From Fervidobacterium pennivorans DSM 9078 (lineage in GTDB: Bacteria > Thermotogota > Thermotogae > Thermotogales > Fervidobacteriaceae), in assembly GCF_000235405.2 (NCBI RefSeq), contig NC_017095.1, positions 1,885,501 through 1,949,500 on the forward strand: a stretch of DNA of 64,000 bases, written 5' to 3'. Below are positions 43,380 to 58,691 of this stretch, one piece after another; position 1 is the first letter of the stretch, and the number at the start of each line of letters is the position of its first letter. The notes under the pieces were generated by a model. It saw only the letters and a program-made list of their open reading frames with translations, made no database searches and was not told the DNA's origin. The position numbers and the translations under genes were made by a program.

Positions 43380-46016
43380 ATGCCAGGAAAAAAGTGTTGC
43401 TTACTCAGTGTTGCGATGATTATGAAAAACGAAGAGCACAATCTTGACAGGGCACTTGGGAGTATTAAACCATATGTTGATGAAATTATTGTTGTCGATA
43501 CGGGTTCAACTGACAATAGTGTGGAGGTTGCCAAGAAATACACAGACAAGATTTATTTCCATGAATGGAAAGATGATTTCTCAGAAGCAAGGAATTTTTC
43601 TCTCCAATTTCCTACATGCGAATGGGTTCTAATTTATGATGCTGACGAGGAAGTTAAGGAAGATTTTGCCGGGATAAGGGAATTTCTCGCAAGTTTGCCT
43701 GATGACGTTAATACCGTATACCTTCCCACATTGAGTTATTTGGACTTGGATTTGAAAAAAACAGAGATAGCTTCAACTGCAAGGTTGTTCAGAAACGGAA
43801 CCGTAAGATACGAAAATATTGTTCACAATCAGCCTATTTACAAAGGCAAGGTTGTGGAAGCTCCCTTCACGATATACCATTACGGATACATTTGGACGCG
43901 AAAGCTAAAGAAGAAAAAATATGAGAGAACAAGGAATCTTATAGTCAAACTATTAGAAGAAAACAAAAATATGCCTTCCCAAGAAAGAGCATATTATTTA
44001 TGCCAACTTTACAAAACAGAGATGATTGGTGGAAATGCGATAGAGCTCTATCCAATAGTTAGGAAGGTAATTGAAATAATTCAAAAGGATCAAAAAATGC
44101 CTGCCATTGCTTTTGAGGTTTTACTTATGCATGCTCTCGCTTTAAATGCGAAGGGGTTCAACAAGGAAGCTCGGGAATTGCTTGAATTTTTGATAAGAAT
44201 AGAGCCTAAGAATCCAGATCCCTATTACGGGCTTTTGGCTGTAAGTGAGGCTGAAAAGAAATACGACGAGATAATATCATATGGAGAAGAGTTTCTAAAA
44301 CGAATCGAATATGTAGAAAAGAATCCTCAAGAGTTTACTTGGACGATAATTGCGATTAAGTATACCCCTATGGTTCACACTCTTCTTGCTATTGCTTACC
44401 TTAAGAAGAAAGATATTGAGAAATTTAAAATTCATTTTGAAAAGATATTTGATAAATCAAAACTTACCACAGCCGAGGCGCAAAAGCTTGTAAATGCTTT
44501 AGTCAAATATATTACAGAGGTTGATGATGATGACTTCATAAAAATTGTCCCTGAAGTTGATAAACTTTTGAATGAAGCGCATCAACTTAGTGTGCACCTT
44601 AACGTGTTTGATATTGTTGAGCGAGTGAAGAAAATAGGTATACAATTCAACTACGATCTTTTTGAACCGTTCTTGAAGGGAACCTTTGGAAAGCTCATTC
44701 TGGAAAATCTGAAGACAAAGAAAGATGGGCTGATGGAATACATCTTTGGTTTGGATGAAGATCAATGGGCAGAGAAGATAGAAAAAATGGGGCTTGAAGC
44801 TGTTTTATTCTTTTACGAAAATCTTCCGAATTCCAATCCAGAAAAATTGCGGGTACTAAACAAGCTAAGAAAATCAGAAAACGCGGTTATCAAAGGTGTT
44901 AGCCACGGACTAATTGCGGATATTTACTTAGAAAAAGCGAATTTTAAGCTGGCTCTTGAGTATTACAAGACAGCTGCTGAAATCTTGCCAGAACTTGGTA
45001 GGTTTGTGAAACCTATCTTGGATGATTTGAAAACGAAATTAGACCCAACAATAGAAGGTATATTCCACGAACTTAAAAGGTTCTACTTTGAAAACAAAGA
45101 GCTCATGACGGGGGCACTTAAAGAATTTCCAAAAGAGGAACTTGAAAGGCTTTACCTCATTTCAGACGCAGATTTTGCAAAATACATTAGCGCGACGAAT
45201 ATTTGGAAAAACAACAAGAAAAAGGCAGCACAGTTGCTTGATAGTATATCCAAAAAAGAAGAATATCCATTTTTGGAATACAGGTATGCGAAATTGTTCG
45301 AAGATTCGAAGGACCAAGAAGAGTTGAAAAAAGCCTACTTATACCATACCGAAGCTTTAAAGAAAAACACAGTGTTAGGTGATTTAGCATTAGGGGTTTA
45401 CAAATTTGATAATTTCTACCCGCATGAAGCGTTCGGAAACAAAAATGATGAGATTGTATGGGTTGGAAATATCTCGGAAAAACATTCGGGACTCGGTGTT
45501 ATCTCACCGTTGCGCGTTTGGCGGAAAGCGAGTAGATATTACTACGTTGAACCCTTCCATATCGATGAAGCGATAAGGATATACAAAGAAAGAAGAGTTG
45601 GCTATAACCTTCCGGTTTTAGAAGCCAAAAGAGAAGATATTTTAAAAGTGCTCGGAGAAGTAAATATAAAAGAAATCAAAGTTTACGAGGAAGATGAAAA
45701 ATATATTGAGCTAGTTAAAAATGTTGCATTAGAAACTGGTATTGAGTATGACGATAAATCAAAGAATATAGTAAGCTTTGAAATTGTAAACATAGCTAAG
45801 GAATTGGGTGATGTTGTGAAGAATTTTGAAAGTGGAGTGCTTTTCTATTTTGTTCCGGATTTCAACAATCATGATGATATCGTTTGGTATTATCCAATCT
45901 TTAGGTTTATTAGAACAAGAAAGCAAGTTGAAGACGAACTGAGAAAGTCTGGGGCGAAAAAGATTAGGCATTACGTCTTGAACGAGTCTTTAAGAGCTGT
46001 TGTTTTTGAAAAGTGA
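43380..46016 (+). CDS. GT2 glycosyltransferase fused to TPR region, probable flagellin glycosylation
   Basis: The first 230 residues of this 878-residue protein are a GT-A glycosyltransferase of family 2 (VAMIMKNEEHNLDRALGSI, VVDTGSTDNSVEVAKKY, and DADEEV as the metal-binding DxD). The long middle part (about 230-650) is helical with TPR-like pairs (LIADIYLEKANFKLALEYYK). The last 180 residues are mixed and unrecognised. GGAGGTTGA precedes the ATG. It lies 39 bases before a flagellin gene with which it is probably co-transcribed. Together with the gene at 38898 it makes a flagellin modification set. Confidence 0.82.
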   Translation: MPGKKCCLLSVAMIMKNEEHNLDRALGSIKPYVDEIIVVDTGSTDNSVEVAKKYTDKIYFHEWKDDFSEARNFSLQFPTCEWVLIYDADEEVKEDFAGIREFLASLPDDVNTVYLPTLSYLDLDLKKTEIASTARLFRNGTVRYENIVHNQPIYKGKVVEAPFTIYHYGYIWTRKLKKKKYERTRNLIVKLLEENKNMPSQERAYYLCQLYKTEMIGGNAIELYPIVRKVIEIIQKDQKMPAIAFEVLLMHALALNAKGFNKEARELLEFLIRIEPKNPDPYYGLLAVSEAEKKYDEIISYGEEFLKRIEYVEKNPQEFTWTIIAIKYTPMVHTLLAIAYLKKKDIEKFKIHFEKIFDKSKLTTAEAQKLVNALVKYITEVDDDDFIKIVPEVDKLLNEAHQLSVHLNVFDIVERVKKIGIQFNYDLFEPFLKGTFGKLILENLKTKKDGLMEYIFGLDEDQWAEKIEKMGLEAVLFFYENLPNSNPEKLRVLNKLRKSENAVIKGVSHGLIADIYLEKANFKLALEYYKTAAEILPELGRFVKPILDDLKTKLDPTIEGIFHELKRFYFENKELMTGALKEFPKEELERLYLISDADFAKYISATNIWKNNKKKAAQLLDSISKKEEYPFLEYRYAKLFEDSKDQEELKKAYLYHTEALKKNTVLGDLALGVYKFDNFYPHEAFGNKNDEIVWVGNISEKHSGLGVISPLRVWRKASRYYYVEPFHIDEAIRIYKERRVGYNLPVLEAKREDILKVLGEVNIKEIKVYEEDEKYIELVKNVALETGIEYDDKSKNIVSFEIVNIAKELGDVVKNFESGVLFYFVPDFNNHDDIVWYYPIFRFIRTRKQVEDELRKSGAKKIRHYVLNESLRAVVFEK

Positions 46017-46033
46017 TTAATATTTAATCACTT
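46011..46033 (+). repeat. Perfect 10-bp inverted repeat at the GT2-flagellin junction
   Basis: AAGTGATTAA and TTAATCACTT are separated by TAT. The repeat spans the stop codon of the GT2 gene and ends just before the flagellin ribosome site (GGAGGTGAGG). It could be an operator or an mRNA hairpin that sets the ratio of the two proteins. No T run follows, so it is not a normal terminator. Confidence 0.55.
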
Positions 46034-46055
46034 TACTTTCCATGGAGGTGAGGTT

Positions 46056-47228
46056 ATGCGTATCAACCACAACTTATCTGCACTGAACGCATGGAGGCAG
46101 ATAACGCTTACGGATTCTGATATGAAAAAGGTGCTCGAAAGACTTTCGTCTGGTTTGAAGATTAACAGAGCAAGTGACGATGCGGCAGGTTTGGCAATTA
46201 GCGAGAAGATGAGGGGACAAATCAAGGGCCTCGAGATGGCAGTGAAGAACGCCCAAGATGCTATTTCACTCATTCAAACAGCAGAAGGTGCACTTAACGA
46301 GGTGCATGCTATCTTGCAAAGGATGAGAGAACTCGCAGTCCAGGCGGCAAGTGACACGAATACCGATGTGGATAGGGCAAGTATCCAGGCAGAACTTGAC
46401 CAGTTAAGAGAAGAAATCGACAGAATTGCAAGGTCGACGGAATTTAACACAAAGAAACTGTTGAACGGAAATCTCGAGAGTTTCAGATTTACACCAGATG
46501 TAAAGGTTGTTGCGCAAGGAAATATAGACCTTGTGGTTAGCGCTGTGAGCTCTGCCGCAAGTGTTGTCGAAGGAACATTTGTTGTTGAAGTGGGTCAGTT
46601 CTCAGGCAATGTAACAAGTGCACTTGATGTTAGGGTGGTTCTTGTAAAACCCGATGGTGTAAGCAGTGTTATCACAAGCTATAGTCAAGGTTCTGTTGTG
46701 GTTGGCGGTGTAAAAATTGTATGGAATAAGAACAGATTCGATATTTCACAGTTTGGTGGCGGGTTGCCACTTGAAGAAGTAATCGACACAGGTGTTGCGA
46801 GGGTTGAGAAGATAAACACAACAGGTAACCAGCTTGTTTTCCAAATAGGTGCAAACGAAGGAGCTAACATGATAGCTGGTATCGATGCAGTAGATGCAAA
46901 AAATCTTGGCTTGTTAACCTCTACGTTGAAAGTCACAAGTCAGAATGATGCGGAAAGAACGATTAGTATAATCGATGCGGCGATTCACAAGGTAAGTTCG
47001 GTTAGGTCTCAACTCGGTGCAATTCAAAACAGACTTGAGCATACAATAGCAAACCTTGGAGTAGCGGCAGAAAACCTCACAGCTGCGGAAAGCCGAATTA
47101 GAGATGCAGACATGGCAAAAGAGATGATGGAATTTACAAAGTTGCAGATTCTTGGTCAGTCTGGTATGTCTATGCTTGCACAAGCAAATACTTTACCACA
47201 AAATGTCTTACAATTATTGCGAGGATAA
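46056..47228 (+). CDS. Flagellin
   Basis: The 390-residue flagellin is closely similar to the gene at 40451 at both ends (MRINHNLSALNAWRQI, LSSGLKINRASDDAAGLAIS, and the C-terminal NLTAAESRIRDADMAKEMMEF) but differs in the central variable domain. This pattern fits duplication followed by divergence of the exposed part. GGAGGTGAGG precedes the ATG. No separate sigma-28 site was found, so transcription probably comes from the GT2 gene upstream. A terminator follows after 23 bases. Confidence 0.97.
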   Translation: MRINHNLSALNAWRQITLTDSDMKKVLERLSSGLKINRASDDAAGLAISEKMRGQIKGLEMAVKNAQDAISLIQTAEGALNEVHAILQRMRELAVQAASDTNTDVDRASIQAELDQLREEIDRIARSTEFNTKKLLNGNLESFRFTPDVKVVAQGNIDLVVSAVSSAASVVEGTFVVEVGQFSGNVTSALDVRVVLVKPDGVSSVITSYSQGSVVVGGVKIVWNKNRFDISQFGGGLPLEEVIDTGVARVEKINTTGNQLVFQIGANEGANMIAGIDAVDAKNLGLLTSTLKVTSQNDAERTISIIDAAIHKVSSVRSQLGAIQNRLEHTIANLGVAAENLTAAESRIRDADMAKEMMEFTKLQILGQSGMSMLAQANTLPQNVLQLLRG

Positions 47229-52340: not shown

Positions 52341-53336
52341 ATGAAAAGTATTTACAAAGTCGAAAAAATAAACATACTCATATTGGAAGGCCTTGCAATA
52401 TTCTTTGTTATGCTTGTTCATGCTGGAACTCCAAACTACATTTATGCATTTTTCAGCTACGGACTAGGTTCGCTTGTGTTTGCAAGGGGATACCAGTGGA
52501 AAGAACGGAATTTAAAAGATATTATCGCTTCAAGAATTTTGCTTCTTCAAACCTACTATGTTGCCGGTTTCATTAACACACTTATATTTTTACTTATCGC
52601 GCCGAGCAACGTAATGAATTATCCAAAACGTGTTTATTTAACAAATTTTCTTATAGGTAGAATGGACAAGTTAGACCAAGTAGCAGTAAACGCGATACCT
52701 GTGTGGTTTTTTCTGATGCTTTTTCTAGCAGAGATTTTATTCAATATTGTTGAAAAGAGCAGATTTCTATTGTTCGTTTCAATCTTGGGTTCTTTCGCAT
52801 TTAGAATTTTTGAACATGAACCGCTACCTTTTAAAATTGACGCTGCGATTGTTTCATTACCCTTTTTCTGGATTGGTCGTGAATGGAAAAAGAGAAATCT
52901 TAGTGTTTCCATTGTGGATTTTATGCTTGCAACTGTTGGTTTGATTTTAATAAGTCAGGTCAACGGAGATATTTCTTGGAACAACCAATGGTTTGGCAAA
53001 AGTGGGGTCATTTCGTTCTTTGGAGAGATTCTGGCAATAATTATTATTGTGTTCCTCTCTGATTTGGTGAAGAAGATAAAAATTGATAAGTTCTTTTTGA
53101 AATTATCCATAAATGCACTTTTTGTGATTTCTTACCATATGCTAGTTGGTAGTTTAGTTTATGTTGTGATGAATTTATTTGGAATAGTTATTTCTGATGT
53201 GGTGGGATTCTTAAACAAATTTTGGTATGTTTATTTCTCACTCGACCTAATTTTGGTATACTTAACAATTAGTTATCTTCCCTCAAAAGTAAAGGCGCTG
53301 ATGATTGGTGATTTGAGGAGGATAATAGGAAAGTGA
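52341..53336 (+). CDS. Polytopic membrane protein, acyltransferase-3-like
   Basis: The 331-residue protein has nine or ten hydrophobic helices. The first contains FFVMLVHAGTP, reminiscent of the catalytic His in acyltransferase family 3 proteins, which add acetyl or succinyl groups to surface polysaccharides. Other family motifs are weak, so this is tentative. It starts 26 bases after the TPM gene and its end overlaps the GT2 gene start by four bases (GTGA), linking it to glycan synthesis. Confidence 0.55.
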   Translation: MKSIYKVEKINILILEGLAIFFVMLVHAGTPNYIYAFFSYGLGSLVFARGYQWKERNLKDIIASRILLLQTYYVAGFINTLIFLLIAPSNVMNYPKRVYLTNFLIGRMDKLDQVAVNAIPVWFFLMLFLAEILFNIVEKSRFLLFVSILGSFAFRIFEHEPLPFKIDAAIVSLPFFWIGREWKKRNLSVSIVDFMLATVGLILISQVNGDISWNNQWFGKSGVISFFGEILAIIIIVFLSDLVKKIKIDKFFLKLSINALFVISYHMLVGSLVYVVMNLFGIVISDVVGFLNKFWYVYFSLDLILVYLTISYLPSKVKALMIGDLRRIIGK

Positions 53337-54382
53337 TTTATTCTGAAAGACCACTTGTTTCTGTCGTTATTCCTGCGTATAACGTTGAAAAATTCATTCC
53401 GAAGACATTGGAGAGTGTGCTGAGGCAGACGTACGAAAATTTAGAAATAATAGTGGTAAACGATGGGTCAGTGGATAAAACGGGTGTTGTCGTCGAAAGC
53501 ATATTGGGAAATCAAAACAGATTTCCATATAAGGTGATACACAAGAAAAATGAAGGCGTAAGTGTTGCAAGGAATATAGGTATTGAAAATGCTAAAGGGA
53601 AGTATATAAAATTCCTAGATGGTGATGATTGGCTTGTTCCGGATGCTATTGAGGTGTTGGTTGAAGCGTGTGAAAGAAATAATTGCGAGATAGCCTTTGG
53701 TGGGCAGGACGTGGTAACTCCAAACGGAAAGTTTTTGTATAGGTATGACGAAACGTATGTTTACGAAGAGGGATTGAAAAACGCAAAGAAGATAACTAAA
53801 GATTTTCTTTTGAGTCGAACTCACATAAGTTTAAATTCTTCTATATTTCTTATGGATGTCATCGATACGAATCAGTTAAGGTTTACGAAAGGAGCATTAT
53901 TCGGAGAGGATAATGAATTTATTTCAAAATTTCTCAGTTTTTCATCTTTTGCTTATGTTTTAAACCGAGCTATTGCGTCAGCTGTATTTAGGTATAGCTC
54001 AACTACGAAACAGCCTACTTTAACTTGCTTTCACAATGTCGGTTCAATGAAACGGTTAAGAAGATTTTTCGAAATACGTAACGAATCTGAATTTGTTAAA
54101 ATCTTAGATGAATTTGTTATTCCGAACGCTTATGCGTGGACCATTGGCAATCTTGCTTTCAATGGATATCCATTTACAAAATGGATCAGGATTGGAAGAC
54201 GTAGAAATATTCGCGAACAAGTGCTCAAAGTAAAGTACAGGCAGAACCCAACGAAAATGGGTAGGCAACTAAGTTTTATAAGAACGACCTATGCACTTTT
54301 TCCCGAATTAACGTACATGCTGCTTAGACTTGCAGGAATTATATTTAAGTCGAAGTCAAGGGTTGAACAAATGTTTGGTTGA
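53333..54382 (+). CDS. Glycosyltransferase family 2
   Basis: The 349-residue protein has a GT-A domain at residues 1-220: VSVVIPAYNVEKFIPKTLES, VVNDGSVDKTG, GVSVARNIGIENAKGKY and LDGDDWLVPDA (the DxD region). A C-terminal part of about 120 residues is basic and probably membrane-associated. It starts at GTG 53333, overlapping the acyltransferase-like gene, and precedes another putative glycosyltransferase by 16 bases. It likely adds a sugar to a surface glycan. Confidence 0.9.
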   Translation: MIYSERPLVSVVIPAYNVEKFIPKTLESVLRQTYENLEIIVVNDGSVDKTGVVVESILGNQNRFPYKVIHKKNEGVSVARNIGIENAKGKYIKFLDGDDWLVPDAIEVLVEACERNNCEIAFGGQDVVTPNGKFLYRYDETYVYEEGLKNAKKITKDFLLSRTHISLNSSIFLMDVIDTNQLRFTKGALFGEDNEFISKFLSFSSFAYVLNRAIASAVFRYSSTTKQPTLTCFHNVGSMKRLRRFFEIRNESEFVKILDEFVIPNAYAWTIGNLAFNGYPFTKWIRIGRRRNIREQVLKVKYRQNPTKMGRQLSFIRTTYALFPELTYMLLRLAGIIFKSKSRVEQMFG

Positions 54383-54398
54383 AAGCAGGTGATTTTGA

Positions 54399-55244
54399 TT
54401 GACTGAGAAGAGATATTTGATAGCAACCGCATGCAATAAGAAATACGAAGATTTTCTCTTAAATCATTGGTTTAGATCTTTAAAAGAAAACGTTAATCTA
54501 TCAGAGATAGATGTACTTATTATGGATTATGGACTATCAGAAGATGTGGTTCAAAAACTTTCTGAACAAGGGGCTATTGTGTTGGAAGCGACAAAAAGAG
54601 ATGACTTAATAAATAATGCTCGTTTTTTTGAGCTTGCGGCCTTTTTAAAGCAAAATCCAAATTATGAAAAAGTGGCAATTACAGATTCTGGTGACTTAAT
54701 TTTTCAAGCTGATATCTCTGACTTATTTAAAAATAACTGTAGAATCGCAGGTGTAATCGAAGAAATCTCACCTGCTATTGTTTCTTTGATCAAGAAAGAA
54801 TATATACATAATTACGACGAGGTAATTAATGTACTAAAAAATAAAAAGCTTATCAATGTTGGATTTTTGATAGGTTCTAGAGATTTCTTCTTGGAAGTAG
54901 CTGAAGAAATGGCTCGTCTAACTAAGGTTGGTAATGTTTGGGGTATTGATACTATTATCCCCAATTACATAGCCTACAAAGAGGGGTTCTGCAAACTTCA
55001 CCCAAAGTACAATTTTATCCCAACTACAACAATACTAACGTATAAGATAAAGAATGGAAAATTTTTGTTTAAAGATATAGACCATTTAGAAATTATACCA
55101 GTAGTGCACAACGCTGGAAGGCATAGTATCTTAAGACCTGTGTTAGATTTTGGGTACGGTGAAGGGCACAACCACCCAAAAATTTTGACGATACTACTGC
55201 TTCGTGCTATTTATAAGATACTTTACTTTTTGAGAAATAAATGA
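54399..55244 (+). CDS. Putative glycosyltransferase (GT-A fold, GT8-like)
   Basis: The 281-residue protein starts at TTG 54399 after AGGTGA. The order of blocks resembles GT8-type or related retaining glycosyltransferases: YLIATACNKKYEDFLL at the start, VLIMDYGLS, then KVAITDSGDLIFQADISDLF with a D-x-D-like element, INVGFLIGSR, and late VVHNAGRHSIL. The match is by pattern only, so the family is uncertain. It ends the plus-strand glycan block and converges on the GT9-like gene with a 19-base gap. Confidence 0.6.
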   Translation: MTEKRYLIATACNKKYEDFLLNHWFRSLKENVNLSEIDVLIMDYGLSEDVVQKLSEQGAIVLEATKRDDLINNARFFELAAFLKQNPNYEKVAITDSGDLIFQADISDLFKNNCRIAGVIEEISPAIVSLIKKEYIHNYDEVINVLKNKKLINVGFLIGSRDFFLEVAEEMARLTKVGNVWGIDTIIPNYIAYKEGFCKLHPKYNFIPTTTILTYKIKNGKFLFKDIDHLEIIPVVHNAGRHSILRPVLDFGYGEGHNHPKILTILLLRAIYKILYFLRNK

Positions 55245-55263: not shown

Positions 55264-56205
55264 TTAGGTAACATCGCTCTTATCCTTAAACTCTAACTGA
55301 AAAAAGCGAATTATTTCTTTTGCTATCTGTTCGACGCTTTCAGAGATAGTGAATTCTTGCATTACAGCGCGCATTTCAAAGTCACTTACTGGGAAATAAT
55401 CTTTAATCGTTGTTTTGCCAAACAAGTGGGTTGTTTTAAGATTAGGGTAGAGAACCGCAATCTTTGCTGAAGCGTTTGTCAGAAGATCTGTTATTCCACT
55501 ACGGATTGTTAACACATTTCCTGCAAAGTTGGCGAAGTGAATAGTATCTATAAGCGAGAACCGTGCCGGAATTAGCGGCATATCAGAGAGATAATCAGGA
55601 ATATCGTTGGCAAAGATGATCCAGCCGTTCGATAACGCAGTTTCAACAACTTGTCGGAAGACACTTTTTATCTCTTTCGTGGTTTTTATGGCTCTCGCAA
55701 GTGGAAATATAAACAATTTCTTCTGATGTCCTTCGTATTCGTTTTTTAATTTTATGACATCGCTCGACGCTTCAGGAAAATCGGGGATCAATTTGAATTT
55801 TAACCTGTCCTGAATCCCCATTTTCAATCGAAATACGTGCCAAAAGTTGTATCCGTTAAAAAAAAATAGTTTTTCAAACAGCCCGGGGCTGCAGATATTT
55901 AAACTTCCAGACTTTAACGGTTGCAATTTCAGGGGGTGTGAGAGAGGAAGCCACGCAAAAAATTCTGCTAAACTATCTGATATTTCAGTTACCTCGTCGA
56001 TGTCTTTGAAACATGAAACAAGTTGGTGAAATTTTTTAGGAGTTATCAAAACTATCTTTTTTAAATTGTATAGTTGTTTAACCTCTTTACTAAGAGAACA
56101 AAAAGCATATATGTCGCCAACATGTGGGGATACAATCACATAGGCTTTATCAGGATCAATATCTTTAGGAATGACCTTAAGCAGTTTTCCTAACAATGAA
56201 ATCAC
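55264..56205 (-). CDS. GT9-like glycosyltransferase (heptosyltransferase-related)
   Basis: The 313-residue GT-B protein has an N-terminal VIVSPHVGDIYAFCSLSKEV, resembling the GD-containing nucleotide-sugar entry of ADP-heptose:LPS heptosyltransferases. The second domain has KLFIFPLARAIKTTKEI and a C-terminal NVLTIRSGITDLLTNASAKI, which corresponds to the family SG/D-GxxH-xAxAxx block. The GTG start follows AAGGAGGAG. It is the last gene of the four-gene sugar-activation operon, 27 bases after the HAD phosphatase, and may transfer the sugar that operon makes. Confidence 0.6.
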   Translation of the reverse strand: MISLLGKLLKVIPKDIDPDKAYVIVSPHVGDIYAFCSLSKEVKQLYNLKKIVLITPKKFHQLVSCFKDIDEVTEISDSLAEFFAWLPLSHPLKLQPLKSGSLNICSPGLFEKLFFFNGYNFWHVFRLKMGIQDRLKFKLIPDFPEASSDVIKLKNEYEGHQKKLFIFPLARAIKTTKEIKSVFRQVVETALSNGWIIFANDIPDYLSDMPLIPARFSLIDTIHFANFAGNVLTIRSGITDLLTNASAKIAVLYPNLKTTHLFGKTTIKDYFPVSDFEMRAVMQEFTISESVEQIAKEIIRFFQLEFKDKSDVT

Positions 56206-56232
56206 AAAGATCTCCTCCTTGAGTGGTTGTCT

Positions 56233-56607
56233 CTATAGTTCGGTTATTCTTATGACTTCCAATTCAAGTTCCGAATCCCTTTCTTTATTTATTGCGTACG
56301 CTGTCAATAAGCCTGAAGGTTTAATGTCGTTGATAAGAATTCTCTCGCCTTGTGGCAAACCGAACAAGATAGCGTTATATCTTATTCCATGCTCTTTTAA
56401 AAAACTCTCAGTAATTTCGCGATATTCTTCGCTTCTTGATGTAAGTATAATTATAAAGTCAGTTTCCGGTATTTTCTCAAATAGCTCTTTAACGCCTGGT
56501 AGTAGTGTATCCCCCTCCATTAGATATCCATTATGTTTTACAAGTGTTCCATCGAGGTCAAAAATCCAGACTTTTGGTAATATGGAAAGAGCGAGCTTAA
56601 CTTTCAC
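56233..56607 (-). CDS. Small HAD-family phosphatase
   Basis: The 124-residue protein has the catalytic DLDGTLV near residue 17, the second motif LTSRSEEY near 55, and LINDIKPSG as the acidic motif region. It lacks a cap domain, as in sugar-phosphatases such as KdsC or GmhB. The GTG start overlaps the end of the isomerase gene by four bases. In context it probably dephosphorylates a sugar phosphate in the same pathway. Confidence 0.83.
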   Translation of the reverse strand: MKVKLALSILPKVWIFDLDGTLVKHNGYLMEGDTLLPGVKELFEKIPETDFIIILTSRSEEYREITESFLKEHGIRYNAILFGLPQGERILINDIKPSGLLTAYAINKERDSELELEVIRITEL

Positions 56608-57194
56608 ACTCCTTCACCTCTCAGTATTTTCCCTATAAATCCACCAGGATGATTAAACTTAAATTCGTCGATTTGAATATCGAGCCTATCTAATAATTCC
56701 ATAGCTATTGCTTGAAGTATAAAAAGATATCCAATTGAAGAATTGTTTGGAACAAGGTTCCATTTATCTCCTTCATGTTCAAGATACAGTATAACCTTTT
56801 TCTCACTCATTTTTGCAAGTATACTATTTTCATTATAAGTCATTATCCATATGTTCGCACCCTTTGCTTTTAAATGGTCATAGAGATATACTGATTCTTC
56901 TGTATTTCCACTTTTTGAGAGGAGAAGAACAAGGTCACCTGCTTTTACAATCCCAAGGTCTCCATGAACGGCATTGTTTGTATGAAGAAAATATGCGGGT
57001 ACACCAAGAGAAATAAGAGTGCCAGTAAATTTTTCGCATATTGGCACGTTTTTCCCAAGAGCAGATGTCACTATCTTCTTACCGTTCCTTATTGTTTCAA
57101 CCATTTCTGTTATGAGCTTTTCTAATTCTACTTTGTCAATTCTTTCCACAATTCCTTTCAATGCTTCCAATTGTTTTTCAAGATGGTTCAACAT
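56604..57194 (-). CDS. SIS-domain sugar-phosphate isomerase (KdsD/KpsF-like, no CBS domains)
   Basis: The 196-residue protein has a SIS fold with SALGKNVPICEKFTGTLISLG, AVHGDLGIVKAGDLVLLLSKSGNTEE and the C-terminal NHPGGFIGK. The last block is characteristic of arabinose-5-phosphate isomerases (ribulose-5-P to arabinose-5-P). The CBS pair of full-length KdsD is absent, as in short forms. GGAGGTG precedes the ATG, which directly follows the stop of the nucleotidyltransferase-kinase gene. No kdsA or kdsB is nearby, so the product may feed another pathway. Confidence 0.82.
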   Translation of the reverse strand: MLNHLEKQLEALKGIVERIDKVELEKLITEMVETIRNGKKIVTSALGKNVPICEKFTGTLISLGVPAYFLHTNNAVHGDLGIVKAGDLVLLLSKSGNTEESVYLYDHLKAKGANIWIMTYNENSILAKMSEKKVILYLEHEGDKWNLVPNNSSIGYLFILQAIAMELLDRLDIQIDEFKFNHPGGFIGKILRGEGV

Positions 57195-58691
57195 TTACAA
57201 CACCTCCGCAAGTTTTAACGCACCGTTATAAAAGGCACCGCATATCATATCATAGTCATCCCAAGCGTACGTAGTCAAAGATAACCATATTATTGCATGA
57301 AGCAATTTAATCTTTTCTGTCTTATTAATACCCACTATCTCGAAAAATAAATGTTCAAAATTTTCGTAACCGTTTGATTCAATGGCGATTTCTACGCTAT
57401 CATGAAAAATTTTGAGCTCGAATCTTTTTCTATTGAATTTGTCGTAGTTTCCTACAAGGCTGTAGTAAACTTTTGCAAAGTCATAGTCGGGATCGCCGAA
57501 TATCTTTGTATGCCCGAAATACCCTCTTGGGTCTATAAAATAGACCATCCCATCATCGGTAACCATAGTGTTCGAGAAAGTTGGGTCACCATGGATTATG
57601 GTAAAAGGATTGTTAAAGAATTTCTCTAAAGCCTTTTTAATCTCCTCTTCTAAAAGAAACGGATTCGGGACTATTTTACCGTTTATGTAAAGCTCGGGCT
57701 TTTCTGAGTGTGGAATTATGTTTTTTACCTCATAAAGTCTTTCGAATGTTTTTTGATAATACTCCCTATAGTAACTCATTTTGCATGGTGGGATTGTTTG
57801 ATAACTATGCAGTTTAGAAAGGGCTTCCAGTATTTTAACGAGCACTTCGTGAGTAGGTTGTAACTCAAAAGGATGTTTGGCATTTAGCTTTTCAAGTTTC
57901 AAAGGTTTGCCAGACAAAACCGTGGGTATGTGTTCGTATTGGTATTTCGACACGTGATTGTACCAGGCAATCTCTAATTCTGCCAGTTCAAATCCCTTTT
58001 TATCGATAGGCTCTTTCACAACCACATTATCTAGCACTGTTACTTTATTAAAAGGCCTTGAAACAGCCTCAGAAAGGAGTTTTTCGTATTCTTCTGTAGT
58101 TCCAAATTCCTTGACTCCTCGCAGAACTATTGTATCGAATACCAAATCTTTTCTTGTACTTAAATATCTAACGAATTCTCCATTATCTGGGACATCTTTT
58201 ATGAGTTCCTTATCCTGAAAGACGAAAAATCCGGCAACGCCATTGGTTATTGATGGCTCTTCACGGAATTCCCCATTTTCGTAAGACCATCTACATGGAA
58301 ATGTTCCTGACAGACCAACATAATTCTTGGGTTTTTCATCGTTTGGAAGTTTAAAATCATCTGGGAAATAAAGGTCGCACCAGGTGATTATAAATGGTGT
58401 TCCTTGTGGTATGTAGCTAAGTGCTTCTTGAAGTCCTGCACACGTGCCCGAACCATGAGCTTTGACCAAAATATAGTTTTCTTTTGCGTATTTTCGCAGG
58501 TAGTCTCTAAGTACCTCGTATTTATAGTCACCTATGATAATAAATTTTGAACCCGAGAACTTAGACATCGTGTTCAAGATAAGAGGAGTTCCATATACAG
58601 GGATTAAGGCTTTTGGTTTATTGAAAGTGTACTTACCCAATCTGCTTCCTTTCCCGCCTGCTTGCACGATTATGTATTTGTACTCTACCAT
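57195..58691 (-). CDS. Fused sugar nucleotidyltransferase and APH-type kinase
   Basis: In this 498-residue two-domain protein, residues 1-215 are an NTP_transferase domain with GGKGSRLG and KPKALIPV as the nucleotide-binding loop and ITWCDLYFPDD as the metal-binding region. Residues 220-498 are a kinase of the aminoglycoside/choline phosphotransferase fold with HGDPTFSNT (catalytic loop) and YFIDPRGYFG (metal-binding Asp). Together they could phosphorylate a sugar and then attach a nucleotide. The gene heads the operon isomerase-HAD-GT9. AGGTGA lies before the ATG. The sugar is not predictable. Confidence 0.82.
   Translation of the reverse strand: MVEYKYIIVQAGGKGSRLGKYTFNKPKALIPVYGTPLILNTMSKFSGSKFIIIGDYKYEVLRDYLRKYAKENYILVKAHGSGTCAGLQEALSYIPQGTPFIITWCDLYFPDDFKLPNDEKPKNYVGLSGTFPCRWSYENGEFREEPSITNGVAGFFVFQDKELIKDVPDNGEFVRYLSTRKDLVFDTIVLRGVKEFGTTEEYEKLLSEAVSRPFNKVTVLDNVVVKEPIDKKGFELAELEIAWYNHVSKYQYEHIPTVLSGKPLKLEKLNAKHPFELQPTHEVLVKILEALSKLHSYQTIPPCKMSYYREYYQKTFERLYEVKNIIPHSEKPELYINGKIVPNPFLLEEEIKKALEKFFNNPFTIIHGDPTFSNTMVTDDGMVYFIDPRGYFGHTKIFGDPDYDFAKVYYSLVGNYDKFNRKRFELKIFHDSVEIAIESNGYENFEHLFFEIVGINKTEKIKLLHAIIWLSLTTYAWDDYDMICGAFYNGALKLAEVL

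Follow-up and report, generated by a model that had tools for sequence, protein, structure and literature searches.

Which compound is made by a compact block of four genes preceded by hisS and a tRNA-Gln gene in Fervidobacterium pennivorans DSM 9078, and where is it used? The block occupies positions 55264-58691, on the minus strand, of the window analysed here (a 64,000-nucleotide (nt) stretch of contig NC_017095.1), and its four open reading frames encode, from 5' to 3', a nucleotidyltransferase (NTase)-kinase, a SIS isomerase, a HAD phosphatase and a transferase. We propose, with a probability of roughly 0.6, that the block serves a surface glycan locus as a cassette for activating and transferring a sugar, most likely D-arabinose. 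The proposal builds on the observed gene content, its conservation and fusions, the catalytic motifs, the folds, a relation to the DNA-arabinosylation module of T4-like phages and an exchange with galactofuranose genes at the same position. The features referred to below are as follows.

57195-58691, minus strand: gene 1, NTase-APH kinase fusion, 498 amino acids (aa), assigned from Pfam, the AlphaFold model and PHROG
58032-58691, minus strand: gene 1 NTase domain (sugar-1-phosphate nucleotidyltransferase), about aa 1-220
57198-58019, minus strand: gene 1 APH-type kinase domain, about aa 225-498
57570-57593, minus strand: gene 1 kinase catalytic motif HGDPTFSN, aa 367-374, APH/Brenner-type HxD...N
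57522-57533, minus strand: gene 1 motif DPRG (metal binding by the kinase), aa 387-390, the same in all of 31 bacterial relatives and in the phage members
56604-57194, minus strand: gene 2, single-domain SIS isomerase of the D-arabinose-5-phosphate (A5P) isomerase type (KdsD/GutQ/KpsF), no CBS, 196 aa
56233-56607, minus strand: gene 3, small capless HAD phosphatase, 124 aa, DLDG ... TSR ... GERILIND
55264-56205, minus strand: gene 4, GT-B glycosyltransferase with a GT9-like fold, family motif G-x-R-S-G-x-x-D, 313 aa
54731-58744, no strand assigned: variable slot, holding the four-gene cassette here and a UDP-galactopyranose mutase plus a transferase in two genomes of the same genus, G007 and G008

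Coupling, folds and catalytic motifs

The stop of gene 1 and the start of gene 2 abut at 57195/57194 (0 nt between), genes 2 and 3 overlap by 4 nt, and genes 3 and 4 are separated by 27 nt. Gene 1 matches NTP_transf_3 (MobA-like, 2.8e-10) and APH (2.8e-6), both above the Pfam cut-offs, and its AlphaFold model has a pLDDT (per-residue confidence score) of 93.4. The nearest folds to the NTase part are MurU, HddC and the inositol-1-phosphate cytidylyltransferases (IPCT), with weak similarity to a MurU profile (8.7e-4). Within the kinase motif, H367, G368, D369, F372, S373 and N374 are invariant across the same 31 bacterial relatives and phage members in which DPRG is conserved.

Gene 2 matches the Pfam SIS family above cut-off (8.7e-16) and the KpsF/GutQ/KdsD model TIGR00393 at 6.7e-30, its 104.6 bits falling below the cut-off of 203.7, with the CBS half absent. 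Profile searches matched the single-domain relatives 5uqi and 3etn well, and also the E. coli A5P isomerase 2xhz; matches to pentatricopeptide structures were discarded as an artefact of repeat sequences. Residues K48, E100, E141 and H182 correspond, at a constant offset of 11, to K59, E111, E152 and H193, which we take to be the catalytic residues of E. coli KdsD; across eight members, bacterial and phage, K48, E141 and H182 are invariant and E100 is mostly conserved. Gene 2 encodes the sole KdsD-like SIS protein in the genome, the other SIS matches (open reading frames of 609, 279 and 312 aa) being probably GlmS-type and RpiR-type, judging from their lengths. Gene 3 has weak Pfam matches to PNKP-phosphatase and HAD-III families, and D17, D19, N93 and D94 are invariant in 18 relatives.

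Gene 4 gave no match to Pfam, the GT9 profile PF01075 included, and only 1 of 32 members of its family matched PF01075 (2.3e-4). Its predicted model is GT-B (pLDDT 86.5), and its best folds in the Protein Data Bank (PDB) are GT9 3tov, WaaF 1psw, WaaC 2h1h and TibC, with E values to 9.6e-9 and template-modelling (TM) scores of 0.50-0.57 for 3tov, 1psw and 2h1h. As modelled, gene 4 is a diverged GT-B transferase whose likeness to GT9 lies in the fold and is not visible in the sequence. The original prediction had described a tightly coupled set, with an NTase fused to an APH-type kinase and a GT9-like transferase: the spacings, a recurrence of the set in 81 loci and the two domains of gene 1 bear out the first two points, and the third holds for the top fold matches of a confident model but not for the sequence.

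Conservation across bacteria

A scan of the genome collection found 283 relatives of gene 1. Most of the best ones come from Lachnospiraceae or other Clostridia, and further ones occur in Treponema, Fibrobacter, Selenomonadales and Coprothermobacteraceae. Of 103 Thermotogota genomes, only 4 have the gene. We compared 81 loci, drawn from several phyla: 79 have the isomerase, 65 a member of the gene 4 family and 58 the HAD phosphatase, and 11 of the 13 genomes checked that lack a HAD at the locus have one elsewhere. The order NTase-kinase, SIS, HAD is the commonest, found in 47 of the 58 loci holding all three. Six loci encode the NTase-kinase and SIS in one chain, which is 701 aa long in L045, and in two Fibrobacteria loci the gene 4 family is fused to the NTase-kinase, so that genes 1, 2 and 4 are physically linked. 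The recurrence of the set, together with these fusions, indicates that the association is not due to chance, and the genes were not found scattered in relatives.

These counts bear on a reading in which gene 1 activates an alcohol (choline or a polyol) in the manner of LicC-LicA, with the SIS and HAD genes as mere neighbours. LicCA-type NTase-kinase fusions do exist, and LicD-family genes occur in 17 of the 81 loci. However, so constant an isomerase, fused in six loci to gene 1, and the matches of gene 1 to APH and sugar NTases, not to choline kinase or LicC models, make this reading very improbable.

Two further observations concern the composition of the loci. A family of small proteins (119-182 aa; for example L023:10466-10942, L083:10586-11131, L081:13996-14352 and L024:10023-10508), with no convincing Pfam match, often adjoins the gene 4-type transferase (about 36 of 81 loci) and is a possible fifth component of the cassette; an iterative profile of this family absorbed fused transferases after the first round, which made later rounds unusable. 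On the Planktothrix agardhii plasmid AP017992 (L110:7989-9880), an NTase-kinase and a HAD occur with no nearby SIS gene, among genes for a glycine amidinotransferase, a sterol desaturase-like protein, a dioxygenase and a sulfotransferase, perhaps for a glycosylated secondary metabolite.

Relation to phage DNA arabinosylation

A tblastn search with gene 1 found 348 phage records, mostly T4-like, and gene 2 found 270. In PHROG, gene 1 matched phrog_4098 (3.5e-61), gene 2 matched phrog_5670 (2.7e-30), named arabinose 5-phosphate isomerase, and gene 3 matched phrog_1238 (7.9e-8), the family of RB69p051; all three are families of RB69 or AbTZA1 proteins. The RB69 relatives of genes 1, 2 and 3 are neighbours (p055, p053-052 and p051, respectively), and phage Lazarus has SIS, NTase-kinase and HAD genes in that order, followed by a thymidylate-synthase-like gene. 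RB69p051 (L111:3709-4095) is annotated as a phosphoheptose isomerase and yet its sequence has HAD motifs; it is likely that the name is wrong and was passed on to PHROG 1238.

RB69 DNA carries arabinose, and ORF53_52c and ORF055c have been proposed to make UDP-arabinose, with relatives noted in Butyrivibrio (Thomas et al. 2018, PMC6024577). The phage modification is a 5-arabinosyl-cytosine built on a 5-hydroxy-cytosine base, and as of June 2026 the arabinose pathway was described as uncharacterised, with its precursor unclear (PMC13390438). The phage module and the bacterial cassette share the isomerase, NTase-kinase fusion and HAD families, adjacent and co-oriented, with the kinase motifs kept. 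They differ in use and in transferase: the phage module is for modifying DNA, with transferases that are unrelated, whereas the bacterial cassette is found in surface-glycan loci and includes a GT9-like transferase; the four-gene block holds no gene for a DNA arabinosyltransferase or a 5-hydroxy-dCMP (deoxycytidine monophosphate) synthase. The cassette works like the sugar-supply half of a DNA-modification system and is not itself a member of one.

Cyanophage S-SRM01 (L108:5414-7826) encodes SIS, NTase-kinase and HAD proteins within a glycan cluster that contains fucose/fucosyl- and glycosyltransferase genes, which indicates that DNA modification is not the only setting of the module; the HAD of this phage is 62% identical to that of the window. 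The 'GutQ' protein of Butyrivibrio proteoclasticus P18, SFQ39577.1 (PMC6024577), from the same species and strain as one of our loci (L095), joins NTase-kinase and SIS in one chain, whereas the window genes are separate.

Which sugar, and in which order

In the pathway that we propose, the gene 2 isomerase would convert ribulose-5-phosphate to A5P and the gene 3 phosphatase would remove its 5-phosphate. The APH-type kinase domain of gene 1 would then place a phosphate on C1 to give D-arabinose-1-phosphate, the NTase domain would convert this to a nucleoside diphosphate (NDP)-D-arabinose, and the gene 4 enzyme would transfer arabinose to a surface glycan. The substrate, phosphorylation at C1, the sequence in which kinase and phosphatase act, the nucleotide, the acceptor and the ring form of the sugar are our inferences. 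We favour D-arabinose over a heptose, now unlikely, because the isomerase is of the A5P type and the related phage module occurs in phages with arabinose in their DNA.

The kinase may act on the free sugar, as in MupP-AmgK-MurU, or the pathway may pass through a bisphosphate, as in HldE-GmhB. In the latter case the kinase would act on A5P to give the 1,5-bisphosphate, from which the HAD would take the 5-phosphate, and the end product would be the same. GmhB is likewise a small capless HAD, and the parts are closely coupled in the order that is commonest across loci. Against this, AmgK and methylthioribose (MTR) kinase, APH-type kinases of anomeric positions, use sugars without a free phosphate at the other end, and we regard the bisphosphate route as a possibility to be held tentatively.

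The cassette can be compared with characterized pathways. The MupP, AmgK and MurU proteins, which serve UDP-N-acetylmuramic acid (UDP-MurNAc) synthesis, likewise comprise a HAD phosphatase, an APH-type anomeric kinase and a MurU-like NTase in that logical order, but differ in substrate and fusion; the cassette adds a KdsD-like isomerase and a dedicated transferase. The GDP- and ADP-heptose pathways (GmhA, HddA or HldE, GmhB, HddC) follow the same logic of isomerase, kinase, phosphatase and nucleotidyltransferase, with GmhA in place of a KdsD-type isomerase, a GHMP or ribokinase-type kinase in place of APH, and another HAD. The kinase of the Leishmania arabino/fuco-kinase-pyrophosphorylase is of the GHMP type. 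That enzyme resembles the cassette in that a single polypeptide with D-arabinose as substrate holds both kinase and pyrophosphorylase, but it is eukaryotic, of other ancestry and serves salvage of free D-arabinose (PMC11301363). Two further candidates were rejected: the CDP-glucitol pathway of Campylobacter (PMC10918830), which uses a cytidylyltransferase and a reductase, and the CA_C2195 neighbourhoods (PMC4000134), which hold another gene set.

If the specificity of the isomerase has drifted, the same architecture could also activate a different sugar: ribose, xylose, a deoxypentose or, from sedoheptulose-7-phosphate, a heptose. In favour of this, ADP-heptose is usual for GT9-fold enzymes, the heptose-1-phosphate nucleotidyltransferase HddC is one of the folds closest to the NTase part, and phage Thanatos has a relative of gene 1 and a deoxypentose, not arabinose, on its DNA (PMC12838424). 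Gene 2, however, matches A5P-isomerase families and not GmhA. Searches of the host genome, a single 2.17-Mb contig, found no match to kdsA or to the HldE adenylyltransferase domain (domain II), nothing above cut-off for kdsB (only matches far below), and for gmhA (TIGR00441) one match, to the different 279-aa SIS protein, again below cut-off. On these searches we reject the Kdo (3-deoxy-D-manno-octulosonic acid) and ADP-/GDP-heptose pathways, and we consider a sugar other than arabinose unlikely.

The expectation that the set is distinct from Kdo and ADP-heptose synthesis is thus upheld, with no standard gene of either pathway above cut-off elsewhere in the genome. The product had been forecast as a nucleotide-pentose or heptose not yet described: the pentose survives, as D-arabinose, and the heptose has become unlikely. 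Its novelty is reduced, since UDP-arabinose was proposed for the phage relatives in 2018 (PMC6024577) and trypanosomatids are known to make GDP-D-arabinose (PMC11301363). Leishmania, for which an as yet unassigned A5P phosphatase has been postulated (PMC11301363), is close to the cassette in function.

Several observations weigh against assigning the cassette to D-arabinose. Identity between gene 1 and its phage relatives is low, at 27-29%; in the tblastn search it was 27-28% over the full length, and 40% in cyanophage S-SRM01. A profile-profile comparison of the bacterial HAD with only two phage HADs was not significant, the phage HAD link being one profile match, and the gene 4 profile showed no relation, at the sensitivity used, to the RB69 arabinosyltransferase ORF003c. 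The Thanatos relative of gene 1, from the phage with deoxypentose-bearing DNA, showed no activity on xylose-1-phosphate with any of the five nucleoside triphosphates (PMC12838424). In the literature we found neither a demonstrated activity for any family member nor an arabinose-containing glycan from the organism of the window.

Exchange with galactofuranose genes

In G007 (hisS 97% identical) and G008, the slot holds the gene for the UDP-galactopyranose mutase (GLF) and an unclassified transferase gene on the same strand (L152:10372-12536 and L153:10506-12667). GLF occurs in seven genomes of the genus other than that of the window, the eighth being only 60% complete, and is absent from both cassette-bearing genomes of the family, F. 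pennivorans itself (G000) and G009, in which the cassette also lies next to hisS. From this presence and absence and the shared position, the cassette appears to replace galactofuranose supply in the surface-glycan locus, as a swapped sugar cassette.

The block faces three plus-strand genes (52341-55244). The product of one of them (54399-55244; 281 aa) has a DSGD motif and is conserved in G007 and G008; it matches nothing in Pfam and is probably an unclassified glycosyltransferase. A scan for sigma-70 promoters and terminators gave no signal above that of shuffled sequence. Elsewhere in the window (43380-47228), a GT2-TPR protein is encoded directly before a flagellin gene, an arrangement suggestive of flagellin glycosylation. 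Because the flagellin gene and this TPR-bearing GT2 lie upstream in the window, flagella are, speculatively, one acceptor to consider.

Implications

The main new point is the relation of the bacterial cassette to the phage module, the similarity of two proteins to Butyrivibrio having been noted in 2018 (PMC6024577). With odds that we judge to be about even, the cassette would represent a complete pathway that makes NDP-D-arabinose de novo, starting from ribulose-5-phosphate, and is carried as a mobile surface-glycan cassette in several phyla, with a homologous set that arabinosylates the DNA of T4-like phages and a fused NTase-kinase that founds a new enzyme family. Such a pathway would differ from the decaprenyl route of mycobacteria and from salvage in trypanosomatids.

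For DNA-arabinosylating phages, whose supply of activated arabinose is uncharacterised (PMC13390438), the relation offers a full candidate gene set, phosphatase and kinase included, and leads us to predict D-arabinose as the phage sugar. For biochemistry the bacterial proteins, of which some come from a probable thermophile and others are single-chain fusions, are convenient. D-arabinose is further predicted in the surface glycans of many gut and rumen bacteria whose genes are now unannotated beyond 'NTP transferase / phosphotransferase', and at one locus in the Thermotogota the cassette would represent an exchange of sugar cassettes, galactofuranose for arabinose.

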